Shown: positions 1,490-29,613 of the stretch, one piece after another
Position numbering within the stretch: position 1 is the first letter of the stretch
Layout: each line of letters opens with the position of its first letter
Source: Bacillus tequilensis KCTC 13622
GTDB taxonomy: Bacteria > Bacillota > Bacilli > Bacillales > Bacillaceae
NCBI RefSeq assembly: GCF_000507145.1
Contig: NZ_AYTO01000001.1
Coordinates: 1 to 64,000 of the forward strand
Direction of reading: 5' to 3'
DNA length: 64,000 nucleotides
Notes under the pieces: model-generated
Databases searched by the model: none
What the model was told of the DNA's origin: nothing
What the model saw: only the letters and a program-made list of their open reading frames with translations
Position numbers and translations under genes: made by a program

Positions 1490-2632
1490 GTGAGCAAAAC
1501 GAGGATGGAGAAATTAAAAACGCTGAAAACAATTGCGGAAATCTTAAATCAAGGACACGATATCAAAGCAACACTGGATGAGGTTTTAAAAGAATTGCTG
1601 AGTCTGACGAACCTTCAATCCGGATGGATTTTTCTGATCGAAGAAGACGGTTCCTATACGTTAGCGGCGGACGCTTACCTGCCTCCGGCTTTAATCCGCA
1701 AGGAAAAAGTGCTGATGTGCGAAGGGGAGTGCTACTGTCTGACAAAGTTTAATAACGGAGGGCTTAGAAGGGCAGCTAATATCATGAACTGCAAGCGCAT
1801 AGAATCAGCTAAGGAACGGCACTGCTTTGACACAGAGGGGATTACACATCATGCAACTGTGCCTTTAGAAGACGGGGACAGGAGATTCGGATTGTTAAAT
1901 GTTGCGGCGGCCGGAAAAACCATGTTTGATGAGGAAGAGCTGCATTTACTCGAGTCTGTCGCCTTTCAGATCGGAACGGCGATCCAGCGTATGAAGTTTT
2001 CTGAATATAAACAAAAAAATGCTCTTTTAATGGAGCGCAACCGCCTGGCCCAAGAGCTTCACGATTCTGTCAATCAAATGTTGTTTTCCGTCAGTTTAAC
2101 AGCCAGAGCCGCAAAGACATTAACAAAAGATGAGAATTTGCAGCAGATGATTGATTTCATCCAAAACCTATCACAGGATGCGCTCGCAGAAATGAAGGCG
2201 TTAATTTGGCAGCTTCGGCCGGGAGGATTGGAAAAAGGGCTGTCTGAAGCCATTAAAAGCTATGGCGCGCTCATCGGCTTGAATGTTATTTTTACACAAA
2301 AAGGCTGTCCGCTTCTTACAGATGAACAGGAGCATATGCTGTGGCGCGTCGTACAAGAAGCTTTAAATAACACCAAAAAACATGCCGGAACGGATACGGC
2401 GTATGTCAGCTTGACTGCTTCTTCGCGCCATGCGGAACTGGATATCATCGATCATGGGGCAGGGTTTCGCTATGAAGCGCATGACGGGCTGCCTTCACTC
2501 GGCATCAAGGGTATGAAAGAACGGGCGGAAACAGCCGGCGCCGAGTTTTTGATCGAGTCAGAGCTTGGAGCGGGGACAAAGCTGTCCGTCAGGCTTCCGC
2601 TGACTAATCAGAATGGGAGGACAATGCAATGA
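1490..2632 (+). CDS. yhcY: Two-component sensor histidine kinase (GAF domain, HisKA_3 type)
   Basis: 380-residue kinase of the NarL/DesK class, partner of the next gene. The N-terminal half is a GAF-like sensory domain without membrane segments, so it is probably cytosolic. The dimerisation/phosphoacceptor motif ERNRLAQELHDSV lies near residue 200 and its His is the predicted phosphorylation site. The C-terminal ATPase domain has the N-box (VVQEALNNTKKHA) and a G-box (SLGIKGMKERAE). I chose the GTG at 1490 because GGAG at 1478-1481 sits 8 bases upstream; an in-frame GTG at 1481 overlaps that site. The signal sensed is unknown. It overlaps yhcZ by 4 bases (ATGA). Confidence 0.92.
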   Translation: MSKTRMEKLKTLKTIAEILNQGHDIKATLDEVLKELLSLTNLQSGWIFLIEEDGSYTLAADAYLPPALIRKEKVLMCEGECYCLTKFNNGGLRRAANIMNCKRIESAKERHCFDTEGITHHATVPLEDGDRRFGLLNVAAAGKTMFDEEELHLLESVAFQIGTAIQRMKFSEYKQKNALLMERNRLAQELHDSVNQMLFSVSLTARAAKTLTKDENLQQMIDFIQNLSQDALAEMKALIWQLRPGGLEKGLSEAIKSYGALIGLNVIFTQKGCPLLTDEQEHMLWRVVQEALNNTKKHAGTDTAYVSLTASSRHAELDIIDHGAGFRYEAHDGLPSLGIKGMKERAETAGAEFLIESELGAGTKLSVRLPLTNQNGRTMQ

Positions 2633-24777: not shown

Positions 24778-26112
24778 TTATGCTTCCTGCTGTTCAGCAG
24801 CTTCCAGAAGTTCTTCTTCTTGAAGTTTTTTCACTTCAATATAAGCGACATGGTGGCCGTCGATTTCGTTAATGATGAATTCGCAGCCTTCTTCGATGAT
24901 AGAATCGTTTTTTTCCACATCGTATTTTTGGGTAAGGAACCAGCCGCCGATTGTATCGACTTCTTCGTTCTCTAAGTGAATGCCGAGCAGGTCGTTGACT
25001 TGGTCGATTAACACTTTTCCGTCAAGAATATAATGGCCTTCAGCGATTTTGCGGATTTCGTTAATTTCATCAATGTCAAACTCATCGCGAATTTCGCCAA
25101 CGATCTCTTCAATAATGTCTTCAACCGTCACAAGCCCGGCAGTACCGCCGTATTCATCAGACAGGATGGCCATGTGGACCCTGTCTTTTTGCATTTTGAC
25201 AAGAAGATCTTGGATCGGCGCAGATTCAATGACATGAATGATCGGGTTGACGAATTGTGAAATCGTGGAATCAACTGATACCTCGCCGCTGATGCAGGCG
25301 GTCAGCACTTCTTTAATATTAATAACCCCGATAATATTATCCTTATCGCCCTCTTCCACAGGGTAGCGGGTATATTTTTCAATCTGAATGATCTCCATCA
25401 TTTCAGAAATTTTGATATCATGCGGAAGGCTGACAATTTCGGTCCGCGGAATCATAATTTCTTTCGCGAGCCTGTCGTCAAATTCAAAGATTTTATTCAC
25501 ATATTTAAACTCTGACTGGTTAATTTCACCGCTTTTATAGCTTTCAGAAAGAATGATTCGCAGCTCTTCTTCAGAGTGAGCGAGTTCGTTTTCTGAAACG
25601 CTCTCCAGGCCAAATGCTTTTGTCAATAACCGTGCGGAATTGTTCAAAAGCCAGATGAACGGGAACATGATGCGGTAAAACCAAATCAGCGGTTTCGCAA
25701 ACAGCATAGACACGGATTCCGCCTTTTGGATAGCGAATGTCTTAGGTGCAAGTTCTCCGACAACGACGTGCAGGAACGTGATAATAGCATACGCAAAAAT
25801 AAACGATATCACATGTGAAATGGAACCTGGAACGTTCAATTGTACGAAAAGCGGGTGAAGCAGCCTTTCAATCGTTGATTCACCTAAAACCCCTAATCCG
25901 ATGGAAGTCAATGTAATTCCGAGCTGGCACGCAGATAAATATTCATCAAGATGCGTGGTCACTTTTTTTACGGCTATTGCTGCTTTATTTCCTTCCGCAA
26001 TCAGCTGATCGATCCGTGAGCCTCTGATTCTGATAATGGCAAACTCAGATGCTACGAAAAATGCCGTCAGGGCGATTAAAACAGCGACTAAAATCAAATT
26101 CACTATGTCCAA
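24778..26112 (-). CDS. yhdP: CNNM/CorC-family membrane protein, magnesium efflux-associated (MpfA)
   Basis: 444 residues: a DUF21/CNNM transmembrane domain (1-180, opening [33 protein letters not shown]), two CBS domains ([10 protein letters not shown]... and the IPIHDLL-like segment with [28 protein letters not shown]), then a CorC_HlyC C-terminal domain. YhdP/MpfA is known in B. subtilis for Mg2+ efflux and tolerance. Start is TTG at 26112; the only strong ribosome site lies 36 bases upstream beyond a stem-loop (see regulatory entry). Downstream of yhdQ on the same strand. Paralog of yhdT 2 kb away. Confidence 0.93.
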
Positions 26113-26156
26113 TTAGAACCTTCACTCTAGCAATGAGAATGAAGGTAACACCTCCT
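26113..26156 (-). promoter_or_regulatory. Translation initiation region of yhdP with a stem-loop between SD and start
   Basis: Minus strand: SD AGGAGGTG (26156-26149), TT, then an 11-bp stem (26146-26136 with 26128-26118, one U-G pair) with a 7-nt loop, then TCTAA and the TTG start. Linear spacing is 36 nt; with the stem-loop folded, 7 nt remain. The stem 5' arm (ACCTTC) can alternatively pair with AGGT of the SD. Confidence 0.8.
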
Positions 26157-27988: not shown

Positions 27989-28121
27989 TTCACCTCTCCT
28001 TTTCCAATCCATTCGCTCCGTGATAAAAGTCTAAAAATTAAAAATCAAAAATCAATTTTTGGAATGAGTTGTGTTACAATAAAATATACAATTTATAATC
28101 GAACTTTGACTTGGAGGTGGT

Positions 28122-28142
28122 ATGATGGGGCCCTCAGCTTAG
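28122..28142 (+). CDS. Possible six-residue leader peptide upstream of yhdT
   Basis: ATGATGGGGCCC... encodes MMGPSA then TAG. A good ribosome site (GGAGGTGG) ends 2-4 bases before the first ATG and is closer to optimal for the second. It lies 89 bases before yhdT in a leader with other regulatory-looking sequence. Short peptides with Pro codons upstream of magnesium transport genes are known elsewhere (mgtL-type); any such role here is inference. Confidence 0.35.
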   Translation: MMGPSA

Positions 28143-28230
28143 GCAACAATACACCGCGTACCTCAATGTTAAGGAAAAATGATGATATCAGGAGGTGACT
28201 CCTTATCCTTTGATGAGGGGATAAGGTTAA
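28143..28230 (+). promoter_or_regulatory. yhdT leader: SD, intervening stem-loop and anti-SD elements
   Basis: SD AGGAGGTG at 28190-28197, then an 8-bp perfect stem CCTTATCC/GGATAAGG (28201-28208 with 28219-28226), TTAA and the ATG at 28231. Linear SD-start spacing is 33 nt; 7 nt remain when the stem-loop forms. CTCCT at 28199-28203 can instead pair with AGGAG of the SD, and TACCTC at 28159-28164 is another anti-SD. The two folds are mutually exclusive. Confidence 0.75.
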
Positions 28231-29613
28231 ATGGACGATATTGACAGTCTGATTTTAATTGGCGTGCTCATTGCTTTAACCGCTTTTTTCGTTGCAAGCG
28301 AGTTTGCAATTGTTAGAGTAAGGAGATCGAGAATTGATCAGCTTATAACAGAAGGAAACAAACGGGCGATACTCGCAAAGCGTGTCATTACAGATTTGGA
28401 TGAATATTTATCTGCATCCCAGCTGGGCATTACATTGACATCAATCGGGCTTGGCGTGCTGGGGGAACCGGCATTTGAACGGCTGCTGCATCCTTTGTTT
28501 GAACTGCTCGGCCTGCCGGAATCGGTTTCTCATGCGGTCTCTTTTGCGGTCGCGTACGGCTTGATCACGTTCCTGCACGTTGTTGTAGGCGAGCTGGCCC
28601 CGAAAACGGTCGCGATTCAAAAGGCAGAACAGCTGACCTTGCTAATAGCTGGTCCTTTGCGTTTATTCTATTTGCTCCTGTTTCCATTTATTTGGATCCT
28701 CAATGGATCGGCGCGGCTTTTATGCGGCATGTTCGGTTTGAAGCCTGCGTCAGAACATGGCGGGTCCCATTCTGAGGAAGAACTCAGAATGCTGATGTCT
28801 GAGAGTTTAAAAAACGGAGAGATTAATCCGTCTGAATATAAATATGTGAATAAGATTTTTGAATTTGATAATCGAATCGCCAAAGAAATTATGATACCGC
28901 GGAAGGAAATGGCCGCTGTGTCAACAGAGATGACGATGGCGGAGATGCTTGAAGTCATGCTGAAGGAAAAATACACGCGCTGGCCTGTCACAGACGGGGA
29001 CAAAGACAGTGTCATCGGTCTGGTCAATACGAAGCATCTGTTTTCAGATTTGCTGTTTATGACAGAAGAGGAACGAATGAAGATGACGATCCACCCGTAT
29101 GTCCGGCCGGTAATCGAAGTGATGGAAACCATCCCGGTCCATGATTTGCTGATCAAAATGCAGCGCGAACGCATTCATATGGCCATATTGTCTGATGAAT
29201 ACGGAGGAACCTCTGGACTTGTGACGACAGAGGATATTCTTGAGGAAATTGTCGGCGAGATCAGAGATGAATTTGATGAAGATGAACAGCCGTTGATCCA
29301 AAAGCTTGGCGACCGCCATTATGTGATGGATGGAAAGGTTCGGATCGATCAGGTCAACAGCCTTCTCGGCGCGTCGATTCAAGAAGACGTCGACACGATC
29401 GGCGGGCTGATATTGAAAGAAAACATCGATATTGAAGCTGGTGAATCGATTCGCATCGGTTCATATGCGATAACGGTACTGAAGATGGATGGCCGACTAA
29501 TCAAGCAAATCGATATAAAAGAAGACGGCAGTACAGCAGGAATTACGGCGCACCACACGCTGCCGATGCCCGAGCCTGTCATGCTGAACAGCGCAACCTT
29601 GAGCGAGAAATAA
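28231..29613 (+). CDS. yhdT: CNNM/CorC-family membrane protein (paralog of YhdP)
   Basis: 460 residues with the same layout as YhdP: DUF21 membrane domain ([33 protein letters not shown]), a CBS pair ([37 protein letters not shown]) and a CorC_HlyC domain, plus a C-terminal tail of about 25 residues. Likely magnesium or other divalent-cation transport or its regulation. It has the unusual initiation region described above and a terminator that overlaps its last codons. Confidence 0.9.
   Translation: MDDIDSLILIGVLIALTAFFVASEFAIVRVRRSRIDQLITEGNKRAILAKRVITDLDEYLSASQLGITLTSIGLGVLGEPAFERLLHPLFELLGLPESVSHAVSFAVAYGLITFLHVVVGELAPKTVAIQKAEQLTLLIAGPLRLFYLLLFPFIWILNGSARLLCGMFGLKPASEHGGSHSEEELRMLMSESLKNGEINPSEYKYVNKIFEFDNRIAKEIMIPRKEMAAVSTEMTMAEMLEVMLKEKYTRWPVTDGDKDSVIGLVNTKHLFSDLLFMTEEERMKMTIHPYVRPVIEVMETIPVHDLLIKMQRERIHMAILSDEYGGTSGLVTTEDILEEIVGEIRDEFDEDEQPLIQKLGDRHYVMDGKVRIDQVNSLLGASIQEDVDTIGGLILKENIDIEAGESIRIGSYAITVLKMDGRLIKQIDIKEDGSTAGITAHHTLPMPEPVMLNSATLSEK

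Follow-up and report, generated by a model that had tools for sequence, protein, structure and literature searches.

RNA structure between a Shine-Dalgarno (SD) sequence and its start codon is usually regarded as inhibitory. The closest described system is found in bacteriophage T4, where, according to excerpts of PMC3014915, RNA structure in genes 38 and 25 shortens the distance between SD and AUG from 22 to 5 and from 27 to 11 nt, destabilizing that structure lowers initiation, and the gene 25 arrangement is kept in close T-even phages. In E. coli, the optimal SD spacing is given as 4-9 nt in the relevant portion of PMC4611024, though longer distances occur. A second relative is the split ribosome binding site of E. 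coli thrS, whose long hairpin the ribosome is said to accommodate without unfolding it; the part of PMC3936740 that treats thrS models its structures as standby site modules, whereas the hairpin described below sits between SD and start. The extended SD of Staphylococcus aureus is similar in another respect, since sections of PMC13009471 report that an extension of SD pairing on the start-proximal side aids start choice; the main text of that paper describes no spacer hairpin. Metal riboswitch and RNA thermometer leaders, finally, are comparable in that a 5' leader structure stands on a metal-homeostasis gene.

The window analyzed here (64,000 nt of Bacillus tequilensis KCTC 13622, contig NZ_AYTO01000001.1, positions 1 to 64,000) carries two genes of the CNNM/CorC family, which is linked to magnesium export. 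We call them yhdT and yhdP, and yhdP we take to be mpfA. The two proteins are 61% identical and PF01595 (CNNM) is present in both. Upstream of yhdT, an extended SD is followed by a hairpin and then by the start codon (Table 1). From the end of the SD to the ATG there are 33 nt in the linear sequence and 3+4=7 unpaired nt once the hairpin is folded; the stem has 8 Watson-Crick pairs, or 11 when weaker pairs are added. Two in-frame stops (TAA at 28222 and TAA at 28228) separate the SD from the ATG, so the hairpin is non-coding. The 61-nt yhdT region folds with a z-score of -2.2, and 3 of 200 shuffles were equally good; the minimum free energy of the whole 156-nt leader is unremarkable (z -0.9), which confines the signal to the short insert. 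In yhdP the folded gap is 2+5=7 nt. An earlier note made from the sequence had placed the yhdT SD, stem and ATG, with their 3+4 nt spacing, exactly to the base, and its claim that yhdP shares the layout and the 7-nt folded spacing was confirmed. Two further homologs in this genome were found at E<=1e-10, one yugS-like (G000:C5:23931) and one yrkA-like (G000:C34:326997-328283). Both leaders combine GGAGGTG with a hairpin ahead of a TTG start, so that all four homologs found in the genome share the layout.

Table 1. Features of the yhdT and yhdP leaders in the window and the basis on which each was assigned.
Feature	Position	Strand	Basis
Extended SD of yhdT, AGGAGGTG	28190..28197	+	direct sequence reading; GGAGGTG in 44/44 genus regions
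CTCCT, possible partner of the AGGAG of the yhdT SD	28199..28203	+	sequence present
yhdT bridging hairpin, variable loop	28201..28226	+	sequence, fold, covariation
yhdT stem, 5' arm CCTTATCC with 3' arm GGATAAGG	28201-28208 / 28219-28226	+	
yhdT start codon ATG, 4 nt past the hairpin	28231..28233	+	kept in 44 genus regions
yhdT gene, 460 aa, CNNM / CBS / CorC_HlyC protein	28231..29613	+	Pfam PF01595, PF00571, PF03471
Extended SD of yhdP, AGGAGGTG	26149..26156	-	sequence
yhdP bridging hairpin, 11-pair stem (26146-26136 with 26128-26118)	26118..26146	-	sequence
yhdP gene, CNNM / CBS / CorC_HlyC protein, TTG start at 26112-26110	24778..26112	-	Pfam

We propose, with a probability of roughly 0.8, that the yhdT and yhdP ribosome binding sites are split sites of the T4 gene 25/38 type, bridged by a hairpin and initiating in the folded state. 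In this model, the strong extended SD (GGAGGTG) would serve as the anchor for the 30S subunit, while the sequence up to the start codon would form a hairpin to be looped out on the ribosome. The start codon, a weak UUG in most members, could then reach the P site because the unpaired spacing falls from 33 to roughly 7-11 nt. If T4 genes 25 and 38 are a guide, the folded form would be the initiating form, that is, ON when folded. Ordinary spacing cannot connect the SD to the start because 33-75 unfolded nt intervene. This reading draws on results of the computations: the arrangement and its covariation, a folded spacing that is nearly constant although inserts vary widely in length and sequence, the scarcity of alternative starts close to the SD, and a strong bias toward CNNM genes.

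The likeness to T4 genes 38 and 25, as the excerpts of PMC3014915 present them, is that the SD is too far from the start and a structure between them closes the gap. In the CNNM genes, the SD lies past a functional linear distance (33 nt in yhdT, 23-75 nt in the family), and the intervening structure is predicted to restore a working spacing, with a median of 9 nt and with covariation in the stem. The CNNM elements differ from those of T4 in sitting on cellular genes, on four homologs in one genome and in many genera, with stems unrelated in sequence. They further differ in their inserts of 23-75 nt, their extended SD (GGAGGTG) and their mostly UUG starts. The CNNM element would be a family-wide cellular version of the split ribosome binding site known from phage T4.

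How widely the layout is kept was assessed in 242 CNNM/CorC 5' regions. The genus set comprised the yhdT and yhdP 5' regions from 43 further genus members, giving 44 of each with the window genome; the yugS-like set, 17 other genomes and the window genome; and the yrkA-like set, the window genome's gene only. A wider set held 46 regions picked by hand among the nearest loci and five further genera of the family, nine homologs from a phylum sample, and 80 named loci kept of 592 relatives found. A region was counted as bridged under a strict rule if the SD match was at least 6 nt, the stem had at least 5 pairs, and no more than 5% of 1000 mononucleotide shuffles were equally good; starts were set by homology and are mis-set in at least L197, L209, L211 and L228. 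By this rule 204 of the 242 regions are bridged: yhdT 44/44, yhdP 44/44, yugS-like 18/18, yrkA-like 1/1, family 34/46, phylum 1/9 and named loci 62/80. Because the sequences are related, these counts are not independent events. The sets also share entries, certain records being present both as named and as unnamed loci, and 146 distinct inserts were therefore used for the counts that follow. GGAGGTG is kept in 44/44 yhdT and 44/44 yhdP genus regions, whose loops vary in length and sequence and whose two stem arms vary together. The bridged layout with unrelated stems occurs in Bacillus, Neobacillus, Metabacillus, Cytobacillus, Lysinibacillus, Sporosarcina and Ureibacillus, and also in Shouchella, Alkalihalobacillus, Domibacillus and others.

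Among the 38 regions not bridged by the rule, two lack an assigned start and ten have a stem by eye (L098, L122, L126, L137, L152, L153, L175, L197, L214 and L228); L120 and L132 look ambiguous. Twenty-one entries have an ATG start and no bridge, and 19 of these carry an SD match of at least 5 nt at ordinary spacing; this group includes loci of Paenibacillus as well as certain paralogs in Fictibacillus and Neobacillus. On a quick FastTree tree of 99 proteins, the bridged state changed at least 6 times when stems seen by eye were counted as bridged. The earlier note had held that orthologs whose SD stands at ordinary spacing and which lack a hairpin would refute a shared arrangement. Some distant homologs, mainly from Paenibacillus but also some Fictibacillus and Neobacillus paralogs, are of that kind, whereas the layout is kept in 4/4 homologs of this genome and in every yhdT, yhdP and yugS-like region collected. 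In the yugS-like genes (L004, at about 1451-1491, and L077-L093), a T run follows the bridging hairpin and runs into the TTG start, so that the hairpin resembles the terminator of an upstream gene set between SD and start.

The stems covary. In the yhdT alignment A2 (28 distinct cores), 97.8% of pair cells are standard, compared with 42-63% in slid controls. Twelve cells are changed on both sides, a number that 0 of 500 shuffles reach, and the covariation score of 0.285 was likewise matched by 0 of 500; two weaker measures in A2, the number of double-change pairs (3; 174 of 500 shuffles) and the tally of additional pair types (10; 389 of 500), were not exceptional. Across 23 sequences, mostly from other genera, double changes occur in 7/7 pairs, and 98.7% of cells are paired versus 35-44% in slid controls. 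The suggestion of the earlier note that selection acts on structure and not on sequence is supported, and more widely than it had claimed, with 204 of 242 regions bridged and the stems covarying. Because the SD and the start lie outside the conserved stem, folding of the CNNM leaders would permit initiation, unlike the folding of riboswitch or thermometer leaders, which blocks it. Neither the SD nor the start was found inside the conserved covarying stem, where an RBS-occluding switch would place it.

An SD-occlusion switch could nevertheless operate through a different pairing. In such a switch, AGGAG would pair with CTCCT across a GUGA loop, hide the SD and compete with the full bridging stem, leaving the yhdT leader bistable. 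CTCCT is present in 20 of the 28 distinct yhdT inserts, the isolated 45-nt yhdT core folds with SD:CTCCT paired and the second stem shortened in 21 of 28 distinct sequences, and 97.9% of cells for this pairing are paired in A2; across the family, a perfect anti-SD of at least 4 nt occurs in 84 of 146 distinct inserts. However, both the SD and the CTCCT sides are almost invariant and show no covariation in yhdT, and longer stretches of the window are predicted to form the complete bridge, which leaves the SD unpaired. Moreover, 62 of the 146 inserts have no perfect anti-SD of at least 4 nt, including all 11 distinct yugS-like inserts and the one yrkA-like insert, yet the bridge is still present, and in yhdP the pairing available is a weaker one of 4 nt, ACCT with AGGT (16 of 17 distinct yhdP sequences). 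We therefore consider occlusion of the SD an unlikely explanation. It could coexist with the bridge in yhdT-like members: the pairing, which the earlier note had pointed out, is possible in most yhdT orthologs, where it is a genuine competitor of the bridging stem, and is not general.

The geometry of the inserts bears on both the hairpin-bridged reading and the remaining alternatives. The distance from GGAGG to the start is 23-75 nt in the 146 distinct inserts. Under the strict test the folded spacing is 5-14 nt, a range bounded by the search itself. Unconstrained folding of 156 distinct inserts gave a median z of -4.8, and 97% fell below -1.5; the folded spacing had a median of 9 (sd 3.3) as against a linear mean of 37 (sd 9.5). 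Shuffled inserts have a median folded spacing of 14 (sd 7.5), and a folded spacing within 7-13 nt was obtained for 85% of inserts versus 35% of shuffles. TG directly follows GGAGG in 146 of 146 distinct inserts, whereas among 124 ordinary GGAGG genes counted in 400 kb of the genome 11 have it; the start is TTG in 115 of 146 inserts versus 13 of these 124 genes. In the long inserts of 60-75 nt (L119, L129, L133, L136 and L138), the closing stems adjoin both SD and start, as does the AAGGAACTGTC/GACAGTTCCTT stem of L133. In this long-insert class, here with L126 included, a CTG or TTG lies about 9 nt past the SD, inside the hairpin.

It is conceivable, though doubtful, that the working SD is a proximal AAGG-like sequence in the 3' arm, which the hairpin would sequester (OFF), with the upstream AGGAGGTG acting as a standby site or decoy. 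Each of the four homologs in this genome does have AAGG 4-8 nt upstream of its start, and 26 of 146 inserts also have an anti-SD match of at least 5 nt at ordinary spacing (at least 6 nt in 11), so that in some members the 3' arm could supply a second SD. Yet the match is 4 nt or less in the other 120, 3' arms of the long class such as CAGTCCC and CAGTTCC have no AAGG-like match, and among yhdT orthologs AAGG varies with pairing preserved, whereas the upstream GGAGGTG is invariant.

We regard as very unlikely that the upstream SD serves a short ORF within the hairpin, with the CNNM start reached by reinitiation. The CTG or TTG of several long-class inserts would suit such an ORF, but no common peptide was apparent by eye. 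Properly spaced start codons are also rarer than in shuffles: ATG, GTG or TTG occurs 4-12 nt past GGAGG in 26 of 146 inserts versus 65 in shuffles, and ATG alone in 4 versus 24, the shuffles being of whole inserts and the 5' arm being pyrimidine-rich. In favor of the bridged reading, 114 of 146 inserts have an in-frame stop ahead of the assigned start, and only 1 of 146 offers an alternative start close to the SD that is in frame and open. Least credible is a role of the hairpin in terminating or attenuating transcription, as the T run in yugS-like genes might suggest, since a T5 run occurs in 14 of 146 inserts only and no T run follows the stem in the window yhdT or yhdP; in those 14, the hairpin could also be a terminator. 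As general explanations, the terminator, the upstream ORF, the proximal SD and SD occlusion were set aside on the insert counts, the covariation and the start-codon depletion.

The specificity of the hairpin-bridged layout was examined in control ORFs and with a covariance model. The control comprised 401 mechanically called ORFs of at least 100 aa from 464 kb of this genome (400 kb and the window), and every possible start within their first 60 codons was considered. Eight of the 401 pass a loose test for a bridged ribosome binding site, three of these eight without an ordinary SD; yhdT and yhdP score 12.0 and 12.5, and the remaining six 5.5-7.5. A covariance model of CNNM leaders, which the earlier note had proposed as a check, was built from one stem register because the MAFFT alignment A3 (46 diverse inserts) mixed two registers. 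Two out-of-register rows were dropped from the 25 sequences of A4, and the resulting 23 CNNM leaders (A5) gave model R1. Being built from one register, R1 favors CTTAC-type stems, and it misses yhdT and the long-insert class. It scores yhdP at 22.9 bits in the window, yet yhdP is absent from its whole-genome match list. The top two matches in that list are the yrkA-like start (E 2.2e-4) and the yugS-like start (E 0.022), and the other 12 listed have E >1. The rows of R1 include the yrkA-like orthologs L198 and L220, and the match L283 is letter-identical to row L184, so the yrkA-like and L283 matches are not independent of the model.

R1 was scanned against 61 order-level and 101 class-level genomes, with the own genome and some others in both sets. 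At E<=0.01 it matched in 14 and 12 genomes, at 29 distinct loci including the own genome; the lack of a match in 47 of 61 and 89 of 101 genomes follows from its insensitivity. By a check of each locus, 26 of the 29 lie at CNNM starts, one of them (L276) with a reading frame broken in the record. The exceptions are L290 (ERF, Pfam), L297 (LrgA, Pfam) and L291, which lies inside an ORF. The L291 ORF presumably encodes S-adenosylmethionine synthetase, and its match is likely due to chance. At the ERF-family gene of L290 (around 1500-1541, minus strand), AGGAGGTG is followed by an 8-pair GTCTCCCC/GGGGAGAC hairpin and an ATG 6 nt on; no DNA similar to this leader was found in the phage collection. 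Among 25 lrgA-like loci, an SD-hairpin-start layout with changing stems was seen by eye in five (L298, L299, L300, L308 and L320) and was not obvious in the other 20. The bridged layout is thus not exclusive to CNNM genes, since some lrgA-like genes and one ERF gene have it. An Rfam scan of the window returned no matches at gathering score, and the yhdT leader showed no similarity to plasmid DNA.

In this cellular gene family, structure in the SD-to-start interval has survived duplication and persisted across genera, its geometry maintained while sequence and length were replaced. The 146 distinct inserts form a natural library for learning which structures the 30S subunit is able to loop out. 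They also offer a lead on possible translational control of Mg2+ efflux genes. Among the literature matches listed, with partial coverage, we found no account of a hairpin-bridged ribosome binding site in CNNM genes and no paper on translational control of Mg2+ efflux genes. Excerpts of PMC8844918 describe how, in B. subtilis, an rpmH ribosome-assembly defect is suppressed by mutations in mpfA that increase cytosolic Mg2+. Our best guess is that the hairpin has been retained to tie expression of a Mg2+-homeostasis gene to RNA folding and to the state of the initiating ribosome. Mg2+ sensing by the leader is a hypothesis that comes from gene function only. The inserts have a median folding energy of -13 kcal/mol, which makes melting by a physiological change in Mg2+ unlikely, and any Mg2+ response would therefore have to act on ribosome accommodation. 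One form this might take, and one we think improbable, is ON-by-folding control, in which synthesis of the exporter would depend on the packing of the SD helix, the bridge hairpin and the start codon in the 30S subunit. Translation would rise with free Mg2+, or fall when ribosomes are Mg2+-starved or misassembled, and without a ligand aptamer the ribosome itself would be the sensor. In yhdT, such control may be combined with an upstream mini-ORF.

This mini-ORF (28113-28142) lies in the yhdT leader, where an SD (GGAGGTG, 28113-28119) is followed by ATG GGG CCC TCA GCT TAG (28125-28142), which reads MGPSA*. Shortly 5' of its SD is TATAAT (28094-28099), a possible -10 box. A pattern search at other loci found MG* (L141 and L174, one record), MGY* (L148, L178) and MGL* (L176) at 100-132 nt, as well as unrelated matches. 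In the genus, the mini-ORF sits 100-109 nt upstream of yhdT and has 5 codons in 40 regions and more in 4. MGPS is retained in 44/44 genus regions, and codons 2-4 change only synonymously, alongside ATG/GTG swaps.
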